From NCBI RefSeq assembly GCF_000332275.1, contig NZ_CM001776.1, positions 3,594,008 to 3,658,007 on the forward strand: a stretch of 64,000 bases of DNA. The letters are read 5' to 3'. The position numbers were made by a program, and so were the translations under genes. The notes under the pieces were generated by a model. It was not told the DNA's origin. It ran no database searches and saw nothing but the letters and a program-made list of their open reading frames with translations. Source of the stretch: Synechococcus sp. PCC 7336. GTDB lineage: Bacteria; Cyanobacteriota; Cyanobacteriia; Thermostichales; PCC-7336. Of the stretch, positions 29,607-38,959 are shown piece by piece; positions within the stretch are counted from its first letter, which is position 1; each line of letters begins with the position of its first letter.

Positions 29607-31607
29607 ATGACTGAGATTGGTCAACGACTGCAGAGTCGGTACTTAATTACAGACATGTTGAGCGGAGGCGGGTTTTCCGTCACCTTTCTCGCCCGAGATA
29701 CTCACCTACCCGACTCTCCCATTTGTGTTGTCAAGCAGCTTAAAATTCTCAGCAACGATCCCCAATATGTCGAAAACGCCCGCAAGTTTTTCTTCAACGA
29801 AGCTAAAACCCTACGACAACTCGGCAAGACCCACAATCAAATCCCCGAGCTCCTAGCCTATTTTACTGATGACGATCGCGAAAATTTTTACATCGTTCAA
29901 GAATTTATTCCGGGCAAGACGCTCAGGCGAATGCTGGGTAGTGGAACTATTCTGTCCGAGCCTGAAGTTCTTTATATCCTCAAGCAAACTTTAGAAATCT
30001 TGGAGTTTGTCCACTCCTACAACGTGATTCACCTCGACATCAAGCCCGATAACCTTATTTTGAGGGACAGCGATCATAAAATTGTTTTAATTGATTTTGG
30101 CTCGGTCAAGCAGGTTAGAACTCAGTTCACTACCTCGACCAACCTAACGCCGCAAACAACCACTCTCGGCACACCGGGCTATATGCCCTGCGAACAATCT
30201 TACGGCAGGCCGAAATTGAGCAGCGATTTTTATGCCCTCGGTATGGTCGCCATTCAGGCGCTAACCGGTATCCATCCCAAGGAGCTCCACGAAGACTCCA
30301 CCTCAGGCGAGATTATTTGGCAAGAGCGGGCCGCGATCGAGAGCGAATTCAAGGAATTACTCGGTAAGATGGTTCGCTATCACTTCGGGCAGCGCCATCA
30401 ATCAGCAGCAGAAATCTTGCAAGAGATTGCCAAACTCGAATCGCTATACCCCGACAATCTGGATACTTGTCCCGAGCGCTTGCAAGCCCTCGTTGCCGAT
30501 CGCCAACCCCCCCCTCAGCCACTGGCCACCCCCGATCGCACCGCAGACAGCGACTCCGCCACTGTAGAGAACAACCCACTGACCTTAATGGCATCCGAGC
30601 GAGACGAACCGATGGAGCTCGGTTCGATCGAAGCTATCCCGACCCCGCCTTACCCCCAGTCTTTTCCAGCGCAACAGAAATTGGCTCCACTGCGGGCCGC
30701 TGTTGGCTTTGCCCGTCAAACCAGTCTAGCTATTTGGCACCAATCCAAAGATCGTGCCCCTGCAGCCGTCCGCTCTGTTCGTAATGCTTACGCTACCTCG
30801 ACCGATCGCCTGCGATCGCTGCTGGACAAAAGCGAAGTGAAGGCCAGTATCGCGATCGCCAGCTTCACTGCAATCCTCTTGGCCGTTGGGGCAAGCTGGT
30901 TCGCCGTTCGCTATATCGGGCAACTGCCAATCGTGTCCCGCGATCGCGAAATCTTGCTAGAGTCGCGCCAGCTTGCCGAAGTCAATCTAGAGGATGCCAT
31001 TCAGAAAGCGCGGGAAATTCCGCCAGAGTCTCCTCTCCACAGCAGGGCAGTCACCCAGATCGAGAGTTACCGCCAAGCACTGCTCTCACAGCAGCAGTTG
31101 GAACGCGATCGCGATTTATTAGCTCGCGCCCGCACCCTATCTCCCACCGATCTGGAAGCCGCGATCACCACCGTTGCCCAAATCGACTCGGACTCGCCCC
31201 TGTCTGATGAGGCTCGCCTCGACAGTTGGAAGTGGCAGAGCAATCTACTGGAAACCCATCTAGCCAATAGCAGTCCGACGCTGGCTGCCCTCAGCCCTCA
31301 AATTGAAATCCGATCGGAGGGGCTCTTGCTTCAATACGATGACTCCTCCGATGCCAAGCTTGCCAGCGAAGAAGGTATCCGGCGGGTGGCGATCGCCATG
31401 ATGGCAGCCCTGAGGTCCAAGTATACTGAATTTGACCGTTTGATTATTTACCCGGCAGAGAACGATCTGCAGGGCAGGGTTGACACGAGTTTGTGGATAT
31501 CATACAAAAATGGCGACCTAACCCTTGACGAATTGCTCGATCGAATACCAGTGGTCGATCGCGTCAGTTCAGTCACCGATCGGGTTGCTGTCGCGCAGCA
31601 ATTTTAG
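29607..31607 (+). CDS. Membrane-bound Ser/Thr protein kinase
   Basis: A 666-residue Hanks-type kinase. Gly-rich loop LSGGGFSVTFLARD near 18; a Lys in CVVKQLKIL near 43; catalytic loop HLDIKPDN near 142; DFGSVKQ near 162; and GTPGYMPCEQS of the activation segment. All catalytic residues are present. A Pro-rich linker leads to one transmembrane helix at about 412-432 (ASFTAILLAVGASWFAVRYI). The ~230-residue region beyond it has helical repeats (LAEVNLEDAIQKAREIPPES, TDLEAAITTVAQIDSDSPLS). That layout puts the kinase in the cytoplasm and a sensing part outside. It heads a same-strand cluster that includes an FHA-domain protein, the type of domain that reads phosphothreonine. Confidence 0.88.
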   Translation: MTEIGQRLQSRYLITDMLSGGGFSVTFLARDTHLPDSPICVVKQLKILSNDPQYVENARKFFFNEAKTLRQLGKTHNQIPELLAYFTDDDRENFYIVQEFIPGKTLRRMLGSGTILSEPEVLYILKQTLEILEFVHSYNVIHLDIKPDNLILRDSDHKIVLIDFGSVKQVRTQFTTSTNLTPQTTTLGTPGYMPCEQSYGRPKLSSDFYALGMVAIQALTGIHPKELHEDSTSGEIIWQERAAIESEFKELLGKMVRYHFGQRHQSAAEILQEIAKLESLYPDNLDTCPERLQALVADRQPPPQPLATPDRTADSDSATVENNPLTLMASERDEPMELGSIEAIPTPPYPQSFPAQQKLAPLRAAVGFARQTSLAIWHQSKDRAPAAVRSVRNAYATSTDRLRSLLDKSEVKASIAIASFTAILLAVGASWFAVRYIGQLPIVSRDREILLESRQLAEVNLEDAIQKAREIPPESPLHSRAVTQIESYRQALLSQQQLERDRDLLARARTLSPTDLEAAITTVAQIDSDSPLSDEARLDSWKWQSNLLETHLANSSPTLAALSPQIEIRSEGLLLQYDDSSDAKLASEEGIRRVAIAMMAALRSKYTEFDRLIIYPAENDLQGRVDTSLWISYKNGDLTLDELLDRIPVVDRVSSVTDRVAVAQQF

Positions 31608-31625
31608 CAGTATGGGGAGATTGCG

Positions 31626-32237
31626 ATGTTCGTGTGTCCGAGCTACTCGCGCCAATTCGGGATGCTATCTCTGGTGTTGGGTCTGTCAGCTCTGTGCTCA
31701 GTTCCAAGTGCTCTAGCTCAGCAGGAAGAAATCCAGCAACTGGAAGAGTTTCTCGCCCCTGCACCGGAGCCTGCTGCACCTGCTGCGCAGCCGAATCGCT
31801 TTGTTGCCCCCGCTCCGAGACCTTTAACGACATCGCCGAGTCAGTTACCTCCCCCAATCGCCACACCAGTAGTCTTGACTCCAAACAGCCATCGACCCGG
31901 AATCCTGGGCAATCCCAATCAGTTGAACGATGGTTTCTACCAAGACACCTATCAATTCAGTGGCGATGCGGGCGAGTTCGTCATGCTCAACCTAATTGGC
32001 AGTAGCGATCGCAGAATGCAACTCGATCCCTATCTCAAGCTCATCGGTCCCGACGGCGAGATCGTGGCTGAAGACGATAACAGCGGTTTCGATCCGGTCA
32101 GAGGAGATGCCCGCATCCTCTTGCCCTTACCCGAGACTGGCACTTACACCGTTGTTGTCACCAGCGCCACCCCCCAGGATCGAGGCCGCTACGCGATCGC
32201 GGTGCTAGAGGTTGAAGACCCCAGTAAGGTCCCGTAA
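31626..32237 (+). CDS. Secreted protein with PPC-like beta-sandwich domain
   Basis: A 203-residue protein with a signal peptide (MLSLVLGLSALCSVPSALAQ, cleavage near residue 31), a Pro/Ala-rich linker and a C-terminal bacterial pre-peptidase-C-type domain. That domain includes DTYQFSGDAGEFVMLNLIGS, LDPYLKLIGPDGEIVAEDDN and LPETGTYTVVVTS. Such domains occur in exported proteins and often bind surfaces or help secretion. It starts 18 bp after the kinase gene with GGGGAG nearby, so the two are surely co-transcribed. Confidence 0.78.
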   Translation: MFVCPSYSRQFGMLSLVLGLSALCSVPSALAQQEEIQQLEEFLAPAPEPAAPAAQPNRFVAPAPRPLTTSPSQLPPPIATPVVLTPNSHRPGILGNPNQLNDGFYQDTYQFSGDAGEFVMLNLIGSSDRRMQLDPYLKLIGPDGEIVAEDDNSGFDPVRGDARILLPLPETGTYTVVVTSATPQDRGRYAIAVLEVEDPSKVP

Positions 32238-32483
32238 ATCCCTTCAGGCAAAACAACTACCGATAAAGATTGAAGGCAAGATTCTGGCCGTTCTGACGCT
32301 ATTGATGACATCGGTCAAAGGGTGGAGAGAAGCCAGTTTCCACTACGCGCAGAATATTTGCGTCTCCGGTTACATCAACCATGTCTGCAATACTGATATT
32401 GTCAATCGTATTCTCACTGTTTTTTAGGCTCAAAAGCAACCAGTGATAGTCATTTCACGTCCTCTTGCTTGGCTGAAAGATTT

Positions 32484-34334
32484 ATGGACGGAATTACGTT
32501 AGCTTGGACCGAAGCAGGCCAGCGCAAAACTCAAACTGTCGATATTTTTGGATCGACGAAAGCGCCCTGGACCATTCGCGTCGGGCGAGACCCGGCCCAA
32601 TGCGATGTCGTTCTGCCATCTTTGACCGAAAGCGATCGCACGGTTTCGCGCTTGCACATTGAAATTGTCTTCAACCCGGCCCATTGCTCTTTCTACCTGC
32701 GCAATCTCAAGCCCAATAATCCCGTCCGGGTTGACGGCCGAGGAGTTGCCACTAACGAGGTCGTTCTCCATCAGGGCAGCACGATCCGCCTAGGAGAAAT
32801 AGAGGTGGAGGTGGAGTCAGTATCGGTTGTACCGGCAACGGTTGTTGCATTTGGGGGCCAGAGCCGAACTGCTGTTTTAGATTCAATGCCCCAGAAGTCG
32901 CAAGACTCGACTCCTCCGGCTGTAGAGCGTATATCTTCTCAGGAGCCAATCGCCTCGACACTTCACAAACCGATCGCCGCAACGACTCGAAAACCAGCGA
33001 GCGACTCGACAGAACTTGCACCGCTGCCAAAGAAAACGCTGCCACAGGTGTCTGGGTTGCAGGCAACGGTATCTCAAGTGGCCAAACGGTTGGGATCGAG
33101 CTCTAAACCCACGCTTTCGAGACAAGCTCTGTTTAAATCCGTTCGGCTTGTCATTGGGATTGGCATCATTGCAACGCTAGGTTCCTGGTTGTGGCAGCGG
33201 TCTCAAACCATCACCAGCCACAAAGCCTTTGTGAATGGTCGCATTATTCCCGTGCGAGCTCCGATCGCCGGAGAACTTCGCCTGCAGAACATCAGCCCCG
33301 GTCAACAAATTCAAGCAGGGACGCCACTCGGTAATATTTTCAACCCGCGCAATTCGGAACTGCAGATCGCCCAGCAAAATCTCAGCTCGGAGCTGGAGAA
33401 TTTAACTTTGCAGCAGGAACGGCTGCAGGCACAGCTAGTGGATCGAAGGATATCTTTGCAGCAATTCGAGCAAGAGGCTGCAGCCCAGCAATCGCTACAG
33501 AGTGCCTTTCAGCAGCAGTTGGTCGAGCGAGTGCAGTGGGAATTGCAAGAGTCGATTCAAGCTGCCGAACTGGCTGAGATGGAAGCAGCGCGAGTGTTGC
33601 GCTTGGCTGAAGAAGGGGCTGTCTCGCAGCAAGATGTGGATCGCGCTGTGGCAGAAAAAGACCAAACCCAAACCTTGGTCCGCAGCCGCAGAGCTCAACT
33701 GGCCCAAGCCAGGTTAGAGGCCACAGCGAGCGAGAGGGGATTGCAACTGAATGGTTCCCGCACCCTCAGCTTTGCAGAGATTCGCCGTCGCGAGGTGCAG
33801 AGTGAAATTGCCGATTTGGAGCTAGAGCGGCAGAGCTTGGCGTCTCAAATCGAGCAGAAGCAAAGTGAATTAAATACGATCGCAGAACAACTGCAACTGC
33901 AAAGGTCTGCTACGATTCTGAGCCCCAGCGATGGGGCGATCTGGTCGATCGATTATCAACCGGATACCTTCGGAACTGTGGTTGCGACTGGCGATCCGAT
34001 CGCCCATATTGCCAATTGCAATAACGTTTGGGTAGAAGCATTTGTCTCGGAGCGAGATGCCGAGCACCTCTTTGTGGGGGCGCAGGCTACAGTTCGCTTC
34101 CTCGGCAATCTCCGCAGGGAGTCCCTTGCAGGAGCAGTGCAGGGAATTCGCTCGGGGGTCGGTCGAGTCGAAACCGGTCAAGATGTTGCGATTCCGCCCG
34201 AAGGGCTTACGCGCAGACAAGTGTCAGTACGAGTCAATATTGACTCCGATCCCAATTTCGAGGCGGCTGAATTTTGTGCGATCGGGCGAAGTGCTGAAGT
34301 CAGATTCCCTCGCTCGCCGAGCTCAACCCGTTAG
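32484..34334 (+). CDS. FHA-domain / HlyD-like membrane fusion protein
   Basis: A 616-residue fusion from the ATG at 32484, preceded by GAAAG; a TTG five codons earlier is less likely. Residues ~1-115 are an FHA domain (WTIRVGRDPAQCDVVLPS, TVSRLHIEIVF, FYLRNLKPNNPVRVDGRG). A Pro/Ser/Thr-rich linker follows, then one transmembrane helix at about 213-232 (LVIGIGIIATLGSWLW). The rest is HlyD-like: a lipoyl-like lobe (VRAPIAGELRLQNISPGQQI), a long Gln/Glu-rich coiled coil at ~285-460, and the second lobe with beta-barrel (ATILSPSDGAIWSI, CNNVWVEAFVSERDAEHLF). HlyD proteins bridge inner-membrane exporters to an outer-membrane channel. An FHA domain on the cytoplasmic side could dock it to a phosphorylated partner. 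Confidence 0.84.
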   Translation: MDGITLAWTEAGQRKTQTVDIFGSTKAPWTIRVGRDPAQCDVVLPSLTESDRTVSRLHIEIVFNPAHCSFYLRNLKPNNPVRVDGRGVATNEVVLHQGSTIRLGEIEVEVESVSVVPATVVAFGGQSRTAVLDSMPQKSQDSTPPAVERISSQEPIASTLHKPIAATTRKPASDSTELAPLPKKTLPQVSGLQATVSQVAKRLGSSSKPTLSRQALFKSVRLVIGIGIIATLGSWLWQRSQTITSHKAFVNGRIIPVRAPIAGELRLQNISPGQQIQAGTPLGNIFNPRNSELQIAQQNLSSELENLTLQQERLQAQLVDRRISLQQFEQEAAAQQSLQSAFQQQLVERVQWELQESIQAAELAEMEAARVLRLAEEGAVSQQDVDRAVAEKDQTQTLVRSRRAQLAQARLEATASERGLQLNGSRTLSFAEIRRREVQSEIADLELERQSLASQIEQKQSELNTIAEQLQLQRSATILSPSDGAIWSIDYQPDTFGTVVATGDPIAHIANCNNVWVEAFVSERDAEHLFVGAQATVRFLGNLRRESLAGAVQGIRSGVGRVETGQDVAIPPEGLTRRQVSVRVNIDSDPNFEAAEFCAIGRSAEVRFPRSPSSTR

Positions 34335-34418
34335 ACCTTGTCTCAATCCAAGACCGATCCTGCTGTCTTCGTCCGCGCTCGATCGCCCGCTTGCATTCAC
34401 TCCTGAGAAGTCACTTCT

Positions 34419-36590
34419 ATGTCACGAACCCGCTGGCTGCCCTGGTTGGATAAAGCTTCTCTATTACTCGCTGCAGCGTTTCTATTGGCCTTTATTCTCG
34501 TTCGAGTGAGTGGGCCGGATCTTGCTGCCAATGCATTTCTCTTCTGGCAAACCATTCAACAGCTATTTGTCCCGCAGGAGGTGACGTGGCAGGGGCTGTT
34601 GTTGCCCACAATTGTATCGGTGGCGTCGATTTGTAGCTTCAAACTGCTAACGGTTAAACCGGAGACTGTATGCTCGCGGGCGATCGTGGCCAGCGTGATG
34701 ATTTTTCTGGGGGTGCGATATATCTTGTGGCGGGGGACGCAATCGCTCAACTTGTCCGATCCGCTGACGGGCGGCCTGAGCTTGCTGCTCTTTTTTATGG
34801 AGCTGGTCACCTTTCTCAACACGATTATTTTTTTCCTACAAACTCTCCCTAGGGTCGATCGCACGAGCGAAGCAGACCGGGGCGAACTTCTGGTGCGATC
34901 GGGCAAATATCGGCCGTGGGTCGATATCCTCATCCCCACTTATAACGAACCTCCTGAATTGCTGCGCCGCACCATCATGGGGTGTCAGGCGCTCGATTAT
35001 CCGCGCAAGCGAATTTATTTATTGGACGATTTACGTCGCCCTCATATTCGCCAATTGGCCTACGACTTAAAGTGCTACTACCTCGATCGCCCCGACAATC
35101 GCCATGCCAAAGCGGGCAATGTCAATCATGCTTTGCAATATGTGGATGGCGAATTAATCGTCATCTTCGATGCTGACTTTGTGCCCAAACAAAATTTCCT
35201 CAACCGTACAGTGGGCTTTTTTGCCGACCGAGATGTTGCTTTATTGCAGACTCCCCAGCATTTTTATAATGACGATCCCATTACAGAGGATTTAGGACTG
35301 CAGGGGGTATTAAACAACGAGCAATCGCTCTTTTTTCGCTATATTCAGCCCAGTCGAGATGCCACTAACTCACTGGTTTGCTGCGGCACCTCTTTTGTAA
35401 TTCGACGAAGTGCCTTAGATCGGATTGGAGGCATTCCGACGGAAAGTATTGCAGAAGACTTTTTTACCTCAGTTAAATTGCAATCTCTCGGCTATCAAAC
35501 AAAATATTTGAATGAAGCGATTTCTGCCGGGATGTCGCCTGAAAATATCAGTGCCTATATCAATCAGCGGTTGCGCTGGGGGCGGGGTACCATTCAAGCC
35601 TTGTTCTGCGATACCAATATGTTTACTCTGCCAGGACTGACTCTATGGCAGAGAATGACTCATGCTTGGGGAGTTTTGTATTGGTTTTTGTGCATCCCGA
35701 GACTAATTTTTTTGGTTATGCCGCTAACATTTTTACTGTTTGGACTAGTGCCCATTCGGGCAACCGTGGTGGATATCGCTTACTTTTACCTGCCATTCTA
35801 CTTGGGCAATATTCTGATTTTTGGCTGGCTGACAGACGGACGGCGATCGGTGTTTTGGGCAGATGTGTACGAAACCCTCATCTGCGTTCCAATGGCACTC
35901 ACAGTCTTGAATACATTAGTACAGCCATTTGGAAAAGGGTTTAAGGTAACTCCGAAAGGGGTTGCTTCCAATAAAATTCGTCCAAATTGGGGGCTCATCG
36001 GTCCTCTTTTGTGCTTGATGGGTTTGTACGCTGGGGGCATTCTCTATCGCATTGTCAACTTAGTCTGGAGTTCTGGGAGCTACGAGAGTGTTGCTGTCAA
36101 TATTGTCTGGTCCATCTACAGCCTAGCTCTCTTGCAGATCTGTATTTTGGCTGCTATTGATGTGCCTCAGCGCAGTTATCCTCGATTTGACAAAGCCCTC
36201 GACTGCAAGCTCGACTGCGATCGCTTTACTATTTCTGGGCTGACCGTCAATCTATCGGAAGCGGGGGCAGCGGTGACGGTCTCTAGCGAGCGATCGCTCG
36301 ATGCAATTCCCGATCGCGTCACTCTGACGTTTCCAACTATTGCTGGCCCCTTTAGTGCGATCGCCCCGATTCAAGCCAAAATAAGGTGGCGATCGTTTGA
36401 AGCAGAAAAACAGCAATATCGGCTGGGTCTAGAGTTTGTCCATCTTTCTGAAACTCAATTGCGCCAGGCGATCGAACTGCTCTACTGCGATCCCGAACCT
36501 TGGACGGACTGCAAAATCCCGGAGCACGTCACGAGTTGGGCATTTTTTAGATCGATTTTTCGCCTGTACTCGCTGGCAGAGACCCGTTAG
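34419..36590 (+). CDS. Cellulose-synthase-like processive glycosyltransferase with PilZ domain
   Basis: A 723-residue BcsA-like protein. Hydrophobic helices at the N-terminus precede a family 2 catalytic domain with DILIPTYNEP near 170, IVIFDADFVP near 248, SIAEDFFTS near 345 and the processivity motif QRLRWGRGT near 387. More helices follow. The C-terminus has a PilZ domain whose two c-di-GMP contact motifs are intact: RSYPR (RxxxR) and NLSEAGAA (N-x-S-x-x-G). BcsA homologues polymerise a beta-glucan and thread it through the membrane, switched on by c-di-GMP. In Thermosynechococcus a cellulose synthase has been proposed to work with a HlyD-like protein. The adjacent FHA-HlyD gene fits that. 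The exact polymer is not known. Confidence 0.88.
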   Translation: MSRTRWLPWLDKASLLLAAAFLLAFILVRVSGPDLAANAFLFWQTIQQLFVPQEVTWQGLLLPTIVSVASICSFKLLTVKPETVCSRAIVASVMIFLGVRYILWRGTQSLNLSDPLTGGLSLLLFFMELVTFLNTIIFFLQTLPRVDRTSEADRGELLVRSGKYRPWVDILIPTYNEPPELLRRTIMGCQALDYPRKRIYLLDDLRRPHIRQLAYDLKCYYLDRPDNRHAKAGNVNHALQYVDGELIVIFDADFVPKQNFLNRTVGFFADRDVALLQTPQHFYNDDPITEDLGLQGVLNNEQSLFFRYIQPSRDATNSLVCCGTSFVIRRSALDRIGGIPTESIAEDFFTSVKLQSLGYQTKYLNEAISAGMSPENISAYINQRLRWGRGTIQALFCDTNMFTLPGLTLWQRMTHAWGVLYWFLCIPRLIFLVMPLTFLLFGLVPIRATVVDIAYFYLPFYLGNILIFGWLTDGRRSVFWADVYETLICVPMALTVLNTLVQPFGKGFKVTPKGVASNKIRPNWGLIGPLLCLMGLYAGGILYRIVNLVWSSGSYESVAVNIVWSIYSLALLQICILAAIDVPQRSYPRFDKALDCKLDCDRFTISGLTVNLSEAGAAVTVSSERSLDAIPDRVTLTFPTIAGPFSAIAPIQAKIRWRSFEAEKQQYRLGLEFVHLSETQLRQAIELLYCDPEPWTDCKIPEHVTSWAFFRSIFRLYSLAETR

Positions 36591-36661
36591 CGATTTGGCA
36601 ATCTTGCTGCTTCTGAATGGCGATCGAGTCTGTCCATTGACCGAACGGAGGTGTAGTCGGC

Positions 36662-37735
36662 ATGGTGGAGAAACTCCAAGCAGGTGGGCGGTCTGCGGCG
36701 CTGACCGCAGCACTTGCCATTCCGATCGCCCTGACGTTCTTAATTCTGCTATACCTGCGCAGCCAGCCCGATCTGCCACTGCAGCCCGCGATCTTTGCAA
36801 CCGGAGACTGGGCTCCCTACAGTGGCAAACAGCTTCCCGATTGGGGGATAGCATCGGCAGTGGTCGCTTCTACTGCAAGCGAAGCTGGCTATGAGGCCAA
36901 TCTGCAATTCATGGCTTGGTCGCAGGCTTACAACGCGGCTGCCGATAGCAGAATGAATCGAGGCATAAGGGGAACCTTCCCTTGGTATCGCACGGCAGCC
37001 CGCGAGCGAGAGTTCTACTACTCGGATGCGCTGCTCGAGGTCGAGCTTTCCATTTTTTATAACGCACAGAACACCCCCCAACTAGTGGAACAGGTCGATC
37101 GACCTGGAGGACTCGATCGCTACCGGGGAGTGCGTGTCGAGAGCTATCAGTATCATCCAGACATCGAGCGTCTCCTCAGCGACGCCCCGATGGTTCCCAG
37201 TGCCTTCAAGGCGTTTCAGCAACTGATTGAGAACCCAGAGGTGCAGTTTGTCGCCGAAGCCAGGGATGTTGGCAAGGGTATCCTGCGAGACTATTTCCCC
37301 GAGCAGCAGATTGCGATCGAGGTATCTGAGAAAACCTGGCCTATCAGCGTGCATCTACTGGCTTCGAGAAAGAATCCCAACAATCGCAGACTGATCGAAC
37401 AGTTCAACAAAGCCTTGGCAGGAATGAAAGGGAATGGTGCCTACAATATCCTACTTGCCGATGTCAGAGGCCGCATTGATGCAGAACGGGCTGTCATACT
37501 GCATTCATTCTCGTCCGAGGGATACCTTGAAGGATTCCTCAAGCCATCTAGCCGAGAGTCGGTACTCCTGCCGGCAGGCACGCGTGTCGTCGTAGAAGAT
37601 TGGGGCGATGCTTACCTCGCGCCTGCAGAGGTCGCCAACCGTCCGGATCGAGTGCTCGTGCGAGTCCGGGCGATCGACTCTCCCATGAAAGGTCAAATGT
37701 TGTACGTGGATGGCCGCACCATTCGCCTACCCTAA
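36662..37735 (+). CDS. Membrane-anchored family 3 solute-binding protein with C-terminal SH3-like domain
   Basis: A 357-residue protein. An N-terminal helix at about 15-33 (ALAIPIALTFLILLYLRS) anchors it. Residues ~45-255 resemble SBP_bac_3 binding proteins (IFATGDWAPYSGKQLPDWGI, TFPWYRTAAREREFYYSDAL, KNPNNRRLIEQFNKALAGMK). The last ~90 residues (LLPAGTRVVVEDWGDAYLAP, RPDRVLVRVRAIDSPMKGQM) look like an SH3-like or NfeD-like beta-barrel. No transporter permease or ATPase is nearby, so a sensor or scaffold role is more likely than import. It lies 71 bp after the glycosyltransferase on the same strand. Confidence 0.7.
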   Translation: MVEKLQAGGRSAALTAALAIPIALTFLILLYLRSQPDLPLQPAIFATGDWAPYSGKQLPDWGIASAVVASTASEAGYEANLQFMAWSQAYNAAADSRMNRGIRGTFPWYRTAAREREFYYSDALLEVELSIFYNAQNTPQLVEQVDRPGGLDRYRGVRVESYQYHPDIERLLSDAPMVPSAFKAFQQLIENPEVQFVAEARDVGKGILRDYFPEQQIAIEVSEKTWPISVHLLASRKNPNNRRLIEQFNKALAGMKGNGAYNILLADVRGRIDAERAVILHSFSSEGYLEGFLKPSSRESVLLPAGTRVVVEDWGDAYLAPAEVANRPDRVLVRVRAIDSPMKGQMLYVDGRTIRLP

Positions 37736-37768
37736 TGGAAGGCAGATCGTTGTCAAACAGGGTCGATC

Positions 37769-38959
37769 GTGAAGTCCGCGCAGTTCTCGCTCATCATCGT
37801 CTTCATCTTCTATCAAGTCATCTTGATATTCTTGCTGCTGGCAGAGCTGGGCGTTCCCTGGCTCGACTTTCTGCGCGCAACCGATCGAGTGCTGCTATTA
37901 CTGGCTCTAGCGGTGCTTCCATTTGTATTGCTGGCTTCGAGCAAGGCACTCCGTTCGCTCACGTTAAGGTTTTCCGGTCAAGAGCTGCACTTGGAGATGG
38001 GGGAATTGAGCGATCGCCTAGACCTGGAATTGAAGCGGGTCAGAGGGGATGTCTCGGGGCGGGTGAGCAATGCCGAGCAGGCAGTCTGGCCAATTCTGGC
38101 CGGTGACGATATTAGCGCTCCGCAACGCTGGGCCGAGTCCCGCGTTTTAATTGGCTCGAAGATGGATTTCTCCCATGTGTTTTTTTCACACCTGCTGGCC
38201 GAGCAGATCGAGCGCAATGTTCGGGATATTCAATGCGAGCTGTGCGCCCCCAACGGCGGCCTGAAAGACTTTGCCGACCTCCGCTATCGCCGCATTGACA
38301 TGTACGTGGAATTTACCGGCACCGGCTGTCAGCTATACGGAATCGACATGCGAGGCAGCAGTGTCGATGACACGATCGACGAGTTAGACAAGCGGTCTGC
38401 AGTCCACGGCATTCGCTGGCTGCGCCCGCTGGGGGCCTCGGAAAATTACTGCCTCGCGATGAGAAGAGACAAGGCTAAAGAGCTGGGGGTGAAAAGCCTC
38501 AGCGATCTGACACTGGCCTCGCCAAAGTTGGTTTTCAGTGGAGATCCGGAATTTTTAAACCGACACGACTGTTATCTCGGTTTGCTCAACACCTACAAGT
38601 TGCGCTTCAAAGCGACTGAAGTCTGCGATATCAACGATCGCTACGGCATGTTGGAGTCCGGCGAGGCGGATGTGTTTGTGGGCTACGAAACCGATCCGCA
38701 GCTTGCCAATTCGCGCGAGCTGATTGTGCTTGAGGATAGAGACCCTTTCTTCCCCAGTTACCATGCAGTCCCGATCGCGCGCAGCGAAGCACTCCAGCAA
38801 ATTGCAGGACTAGAGGACGCACTTCGCGGTCTCGAAGCAATCATCGCAACGCGCGATCTTATCAATGTGGTGTTCGAACTCCACACCCGTGGCTCCGATC
38901 CGGCAGTAGCCCGAGACATGGCCAGACGCTATCTCGATCGCTCTCGTCGCCAAAACTAA
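37769..38959 (+). CDS. Membrane-anchored OpuAC/ProX-type substrate-binding protein
   Basis: A 396-residue protein. Two N-terminal helices (SLIIVFIFYQVILIFLLLAE and RVLLLLALAVLPFVLLASSK) and a short helical linker are followed by a glycine-betaine-type binding domain. That domain includes VLIGSKMDFSHVFFSHLLAE, RIDMYVEFTGTG, ENYCLAMRRDKAKELGVKSL and EADVFVGYETDPQLANS. OpuAC domains bind quaternary amines such as betaine or choline. No OpuA ATPase or permease is adjacent, so the protein probably senses a ligand. Gap to the preceding binding-protein gene: 33 bp. Last gene of the cluster; it converges on menA. Confidence 0.78.
   Translation: MKSAQFSLIIVFIFYQVILIFLLLAELGVPWLDFLRATDRVLLLLALAVLPFVLLASSKALRSLTLRFSGQELHLEMGELSDRLDLELKRVRGDVSGRVSNAEQAVWPILAGDDISAPQRWAESRVLIGSKMDFSHVFFSHLLAEQIERNVRDIQCELCAPNGGLKDFADLRYRRIDMYVEFTGTGCQLYGIDMRGSSVDDTIDELDKRSAVHGIRWLRPLGASENYCLAMRRDKAKELGVKSLSDLTLASPKLVFSGDPEFLNRHDCYLGLLNTYKLRFKATEVCDINDRYGMLESGEADVFVGYETDPQLANSRELIVLEDRDPFFPSYHAVPIARSEALQQIAGLEDALRGLEAIIATRDLINVVFELHTRGSDPAVARDMARRYLDRSRRQN

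Follow-up and report, generated by a model that had tools for sequence, protein, structure and literature searches.

Within the 64,000-nucleotide window of Synechococcus sp. PCC 7336 DNA analysed here (contig NZ_CM001776.1), positions 29607-38959 hold six plus-strand open reading frames (ORFs), with minus-strand genes on either side. At the centre lie the gene of an FHA-HlyD fusion protein (32484..34334, +; 616 aa counted from ATG 32484) and that of a BcsA-like GT2 synthase with a C-terminal PilZ domain (34419..36590, +; 723 aa). They are preceded by genes for a Hanks-type transmembrane (TM) Ser/Thr kinase (STK) of 666 aa (29607..31607, +) and for a 203-aa PPC-domain protein, predicted to be secreted, with a signal-peptide-like N-terminus (31626..32237, +). 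Two genes follow, one for protein 5, a SBP_bac_3-like protein of 357 aa (36662..37735, +), and one for protein 6, with a two-TM N-terminus and an OpuAC domain (37769..38959, +). The Pfam E-values were 8.5e-31 for Pkinase, 8.6e-6 for PPC, 1.4e-12 for FHA, 1.6e-18 for HlyD, 3.1e-11 for PilZ and 1.6e-25 for OpuAC. The strain was isolated from a seawater tank and its genome is described as 5.07 Mb in one contig with 53.7% GC (PMC4734447); the sequence used here is a single contig of 5,066,637 bases.

The fusion protein is composed of an FHA domain (residues 1-114), a disordered Ser/Thr-rich linker (119-210), a TM helix (212-241) and an EmrA-like barrel with a long alpha-hairpin (291-474). In the alignment, about 210 residues stand ahead of the TM helix, whereas the N-termini of the relatives are short. 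The AlphaFold model, with a mean predicted local distance difference test (pLDDT) score of 81.6, reproduces this order: the FHA sandwich is predicted with confidence, the linker is disordered, and beyond the TM helix the adaptor part extends a long hairpin. Its best Foldseek matches are EmrA (4tko, E 8.9e-18) and MacA. The phosphothreonine-contact residues of the FHA domain (GR, SRxH and Asn) are kept, and the predicted topology places this domain on the cytosolic side of the single TM helix. No second protein matching both the FHA and HlyD halves was found in 386 cyanobacterial genomes sampled across the phylum. A scan of the genome contigs with the FHA-HlyD protein and a PDB search with the FHA domain alone gave no match, and a limited literature search found no study of FHA-HlyD fusions or of tlr1795.

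The synthase matches the E. coli BcsA structures, and its motifs D-D, DAD (DxD), ED, QRLRW (QxxRW), FKVTPK, RxxxR and NxSxxG are all intact. The first-pass annotation had described a BcsA-like polymerase with intact c-di-GMP motifs and c-di-GMP-gated synthesis; the former is confirmed, and the latter is supported, at the sequence level, by the PilZ and gating motifs.

The adaptor and the synthase form a conserved two-gene unit, an ordinary core known from other cyanobacteria. Same-strand HlyD-synthase pairs occur in G036 (twice), G089, G179, G085, G151, G101, G191 and G175 of a 194-genome sample; wider genome sets yield further pairs, and adjacent ones are also present in G217 and G271. Maximum-likelihood analysis places the window synthase in one clade with those of G036, G089, G179, G085 and G151 (support 100/98). 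This tlr1795-like clade is separate from the one holding the G089 tll0007-position sequence and the other S. elongatus-like pair, the gene names in G089 and G036 being presumptive assignments by position. A scan of the genome contigs with the synthase alignment returned matches mostly from other clades. At L203:9208-14061 (+), one HlyD adaptor is followed by tandem synthases of 735 and 747 aa, each ~52% identical to that of the window. In two genomes, a giant ORF of ~2,690 aa was observed directly upstream of the Nostocales-like adaptor-synthase pair (L043:2-8089 (+) and L044:3-8084 (+)).

The pair resembles several known systems. Adaptor-plus-BcsA systems have been proposed for cyanobacteria, with an XcsA/XcsB model for cellulose, two pairs in S. 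elongatus and Tll0007 linked to cellulose (PMC12430437). Like XcsA-XcsB(-TolC) (Tll0007, Tlr0903, Tlr1605; PMC12430437), the window has a PilZ-bearing BcsA-like synthase, a HlyD-like adaptor gene and no BcsB, but its synthase falls outside the Tll0007 (XcsA) clade, its adaptor carries an FHA domain and four extra genes are present. None of the six cluster genes is an XcsC endoglucanase by Pfam; T. vulcanus likewise has no linked XcsC gene (PMC12430437). The window pair also shares its clade and gene order with pairs of G036 and G089, which we take to be the functionally uncharacterised Synpcc7942_2152/2151 and tlr1795-like pairs. These differ from the window in having no FHA on the adaptor and no kinase, PPC or solute-binding protein (SBP) neighbours. 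The FHA-bearing adaptor is a new, lineage-specific addition to a known core.

The closest FHA domain found is a paralogue in the same genome (C1:4655861), 45% identical over ~200 residues, linker included. The two share a 5-residue insertion that other FHA domains do not have, and the cluster around the paralogue holds three FHA genes in all, along with a kinase gene; together, these features suggest that the window FHA arose by duplication from a kinase-associated locus. In this second cluster (L050:4826-10736 (+)) we observed genes for a cyclase-FHA protein, a stand-alone FHA protein, an FHA-oxidoreductase-like protein and a kinase with a C-terminus that looks PPC-like by eye. A 451-aa transposase-like ORF on the window minus strand, from 3920, is identical to a copy near this cluster (L050:3270-4625).

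The window kinase has its catalytic domain at residues 21-272 and a TM helix at 415-433, followed by a C-terminus that is predicted to be periplasmic and is coiled, with no known domain. The K, D, DFG and KPDN motifs are present, and HLD replaces HRD. Single-chain STK-FHA proteins were found in G172, G174, G356, G328 and G091, with a kinase 48-51% and an FHA 38-43% identical to those of the window; in G172, a trypsin-PPC protein (a PPC-domain protease) is encoded beside the STK-FHA gene. At L202:13836-16586 (+) there is a 916-aa kinase-FHA-TM-SH3-repeat protein, the gene of which adjoins a trypsin-PPC gene. In the window genome an FHA domain lies within 2.2 kb of the kinase at 2 of the 6 kinase loci, and in shuffling tests this proximity had P ~0.002 at 2.3 kb and ~0.004 at 3 kb. 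The STK-FHA proteins, the second cluster and the proximity give modest independent support to a kinase-FHA link. Descent of the window kinase specifically from an STK-FHA fusion is not supported: numerous kinases without an FHA domain are just as close to it, and the tree leaves the kinase unplaced.

Taking the observed genes, domains, domain order, intact motifs, predicted fold and conserved pair together, we propose a beta-glucan synthase-export pair whose adaptor gained a phosphothreonine reader, so that export would come under kinase control besides c-di-GMP; we consider that this proposal could equally prove right or wrong. In the scheme that follows, the polymer, the target of phosphorylation, the way in which regulation runs and the partner in the outer membrane are inferred. 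Upon binding of c-di-GMP to PilZ, the GT2 synthase would polymerise a sugar, probably from UDP-glucose, and feed the chain through the TM channel that it forms itself, while the EmrA/HlyD-like adaptor would connect the synthase to a TolC-type outer-membrane channel. The upstream transmembrane kinase, when active, would place phosphate on itself, on the synthase, on the FHA-HlyD linker or on some other partner, and the cytosolic FHA domain would dock on the phosphothreonine and thereby assemble or retain the complex. Export would then require c-di-GMP and kinase activity together.

The first-pass annotation knew of no described system that adds a kinase, a phosphothreonine-reading domain and two ligand-binding modules to such a pair; taken to mean that none joins a kinase and an FHA domain with an exporter, this is too strong, as there are precedents in kind. 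In the two-gene operon pknF-Rv1747, a kinase is encoded with an FHA-bearing exporter (PMC3908365). There, as in the window, an STK gene lies upstream of an exporter with a cytosolic FHA, and PknF modulates the transporter; Rv1747, however, is an ABC transporter, and its exporter part is not homologous to the HlyD adaptor and glucan synthase. In the type VI secretion system, PpkA phosphorylates TssL and Fha then binds TssL, activating secretion (PMC3953482). This pair of an STK and an FHA protein controls a secretion machine post-translationally, but the machine is contractile and secretes protein, and its FHA is a separate subunit. The window combines a catalytically intact kinase gene beside an exporter component with an FHA domain, intact in its phosphothreonine contacts, on the exporter subunit itself, cytosolic by predicted topology.

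The main rival takes the adaptor-synthase pair alone as the functional unit and the genes for the kinase, the PPC protein and the SBPs as same-strand bystanders, the FHA domain tethering or oligomerising the adaptor through a fixed interaction without this kinase. Several observations favour it and weigh against the kinase-controlled scheme. The first-pass annotation had suggested looking for the gene order in other cyanobacteria, its absence there counting against the reading: conservation extends to the HlyD-synthase pair but not to the six-gene order. Among the further adaptor-synthase loci read, none has an FHA gene, and none has the kinase, the PPC gene or either SBP gene arranged around the pair as here; a conserved six-gene operon was rejected on this ground. 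PPC is a common domain among cyanobacteria, and the kinase comes from a large generic family, being 48-53% identical to many cyanobacterial STKs and no closer to the FHA-bearing ones than to many FHA-less kinases; five STK-FHA proteins were noted against ~150 kinases listed. The proximity test was post hoc, designed after the loci had been seen, and rests on two loci. The fusion occurs in one genome only, and the family to which this genome belongs has no other representative in the genome set, so that selection on the arrangement cannot be judged.

The spacing of the genes also counts on this side. The mechanical ORF start of the FHA-HlyD gene is TTG 32469, but ATG 32484 is the better choice, as it is the point at which related FHA domains begin in the alignment, and a 246-nt gap (32238..32483, +) therefore follows the PPC gene, separating the kinase and PPC genes from the adaptor gene. 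With this start, the gaps between the six genes are 18, 246, 84, 71 and 33 nt. The cluster described by the first-pass annotation is thus present in its six plus-strand ORFs and their domains, but not all of its gaps are small. The 246-nt gap could hold a separate promoter, and the unity of the six genes as a single operon is unproven; within the gap, Rfam gave no match, and a promoter/terminator scan stayed at chance level and found no consensus site.

Against the rival stand the kept phosphothreonine-contact residues, the existence of STK-FHA fusions and the closer-than-chance spacing of STK and FHA genes in the window genome. We regard it as a serious possibility, if not one that we would expect to prevail. 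Phosphorylation-gated export, as claimed in the first-pass annotation, is plausible from the FHA residues and their cytosolic side, the kinase motifs and the STK-FHA links elsewhere, and no other reading of the fusion has as much support; the nearby kinase is suggestive but no proof. Kinases also lie near the pair in G101 (L044), which is likely chance, as this genome has 66 first-look kinase candidates and the kinases are on the opposite strand. The two estimates so far, on the proposal and on its main rival, concern regulation. Those given below, on the product and on protein 6, answer separate questions, so that all four together do not add up to one.

Instead of cellulose, the product may be a (1,3;1,4)-beta-glucan of mixed linkage or some other polymer, the adaptor-GT2 pair being analogous to the rhizobial BgsB-BgsA, which produces mixed-linkage glucan (PMC9495663). 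Rhizobial HlyD-GT2 pairs are among the relatives, and in BgsB-BgsA too a HlyD-like adaptor gene precedes a GT2 synthase, BgsA being c-di-GMP-activated. In the alignment, the window synthase reads CCGT, close to the rhizobial CCGS, where classical cellulose synthases read FFCGS, and it has DDL where most aligned sequences read DDG or DDT. However, the tll0007-like sequence also reads CCGT, and published work connects Tll0007 with cellulose (PMC12430437). In addition, BgsA is without PilZ (PMC5567048), having a separate c-di-GMP-binding C-terminus, and without an FHA-bearing partner, whereas the window PilZ (E 3.1e-11) has both motifs. The window was not filed under BgsA for the lack of PilZ in the latter and because the rhizobial synthases form their own, strongly supported clade. 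A non-cellulose product is rather unlikely.

The PPC, protein 5 and protein 6 genes are tied to the pair by position alone; they are accessory at most, their role is not established, and neither is the six-gene system as a functional whole. Protein 5 has an N-terminal anchor and a C-terminal extension of ~90 aa, and its SBP_bac_3 match (24.1 bits) is below the Pfam gathering score of 26.4. It is an orphan: a search of 194 cyanobacterial genomes gave none with a relative at E<=1e-8. Its matches are mostly to Vibrio and Salinivibrio substrate-binding proteins at 22-25% identity, and its single-sequence fold model (pLDDT 35) is too low for use. It may thus only weakly be taken as a substrate-binding protein. 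The N-terminus of protein 6 forms two TM helices (6-24 and 41-59); then come a positively charged stretch and the OpuAC domain (126-389), a binding domain of the betaine/choline type, which, by the positive-inside rule applied to the hydropathy prediction, probably faces the cytosol. Many OpuAC domains match the protein, but in nearly every case the match starts no earlier than about residue 109, and no relative of its TM N-terminus was found among these matches. The two anchored solute-binding proteins of the first-pass annotation are therefore upheld for the anchor of protein 5 but not for its sub-threshold domain, nor for protein 6, with two TM helices in place of one anchor, and the suggested input from outside ligands is weak. 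That protein 6 is a cytosolic betaine/choline-type osmolyte sensor tuning glucan synthesis in a seawater-tank strain (PMC4734447) would fit its positive-inside pattern and its OpuAC domain, which keeps most ligand-cage aromatics when aligned with choline/nicotinic sensors and ProX, but this is improbable, as the topology is a hydropathy prediction, no relative shares the N-terminus and position is the sole link to the synthase. The flanking minus-strand genes are a fatty-acid hydroxylase-family gene and sdhA upstream and a UbiA/menA-type gene downstream.

A parallel to the FHA-HlyD fusion was found in two distant cyanobacterial adaptors, of G390 (L198:9067-11256 (-)) and G062 (L199:8780-10900 (+)), in which an EAL domain (E-values 2.7e-54 and 2.3e-48) stands ahead of the TM helix and HlyD part. 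Both are encoded beside GT2 polysaccharide synthase genes and thus, like the window adaptor, carry an N-terminal cytosolic signalling domain in a polysaccharide locus; they differ from it in the domain, EAL (c-di-GMP) instead of FHA, in a GT2 without a PilZ match and in the neighbours, a UDP-sugar dehydrogenase or a PL14 lyase. In the alignment both read AKF at the usual AEGVE site and have lost a glutamate of solved EAL proteins, so that they may be c-di-GMP receptors rather than enzymes. No paper on EAL-HlyD adaptors was found in a limited literature search. Together with the FHA-HlyD fusion, they imply that signalling domains joined adaptor N-termini independently, at least twice.

Tentatively, and with more doubt than confidence, we suggest that HlyD/EmrA adaptors of polysaccharide exporters are plug-in signal receivers, in which an N-terminal FHA or EAL domain would gate channel assembly separately from synthesis, here through a neighbouring STK besides c-di-GMP. 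If the kinase-controlled scheme is true, it would be the first example known to us in which phosphothreonine signalling acts on a glucan exporter through its periplasmic-adaptor subunit, and one machine would have two checkpoints, c-di-GMP on the synthase and the kinase on the adaptor. With the EAL-HlyD fusions, it would lead to the general and testable idea that adaptor N-termini are where cells couple export to signalling, and would offer a handle on the assembly and control of the cyanobacterial adaptor-synthase pairs that work without BcsB.

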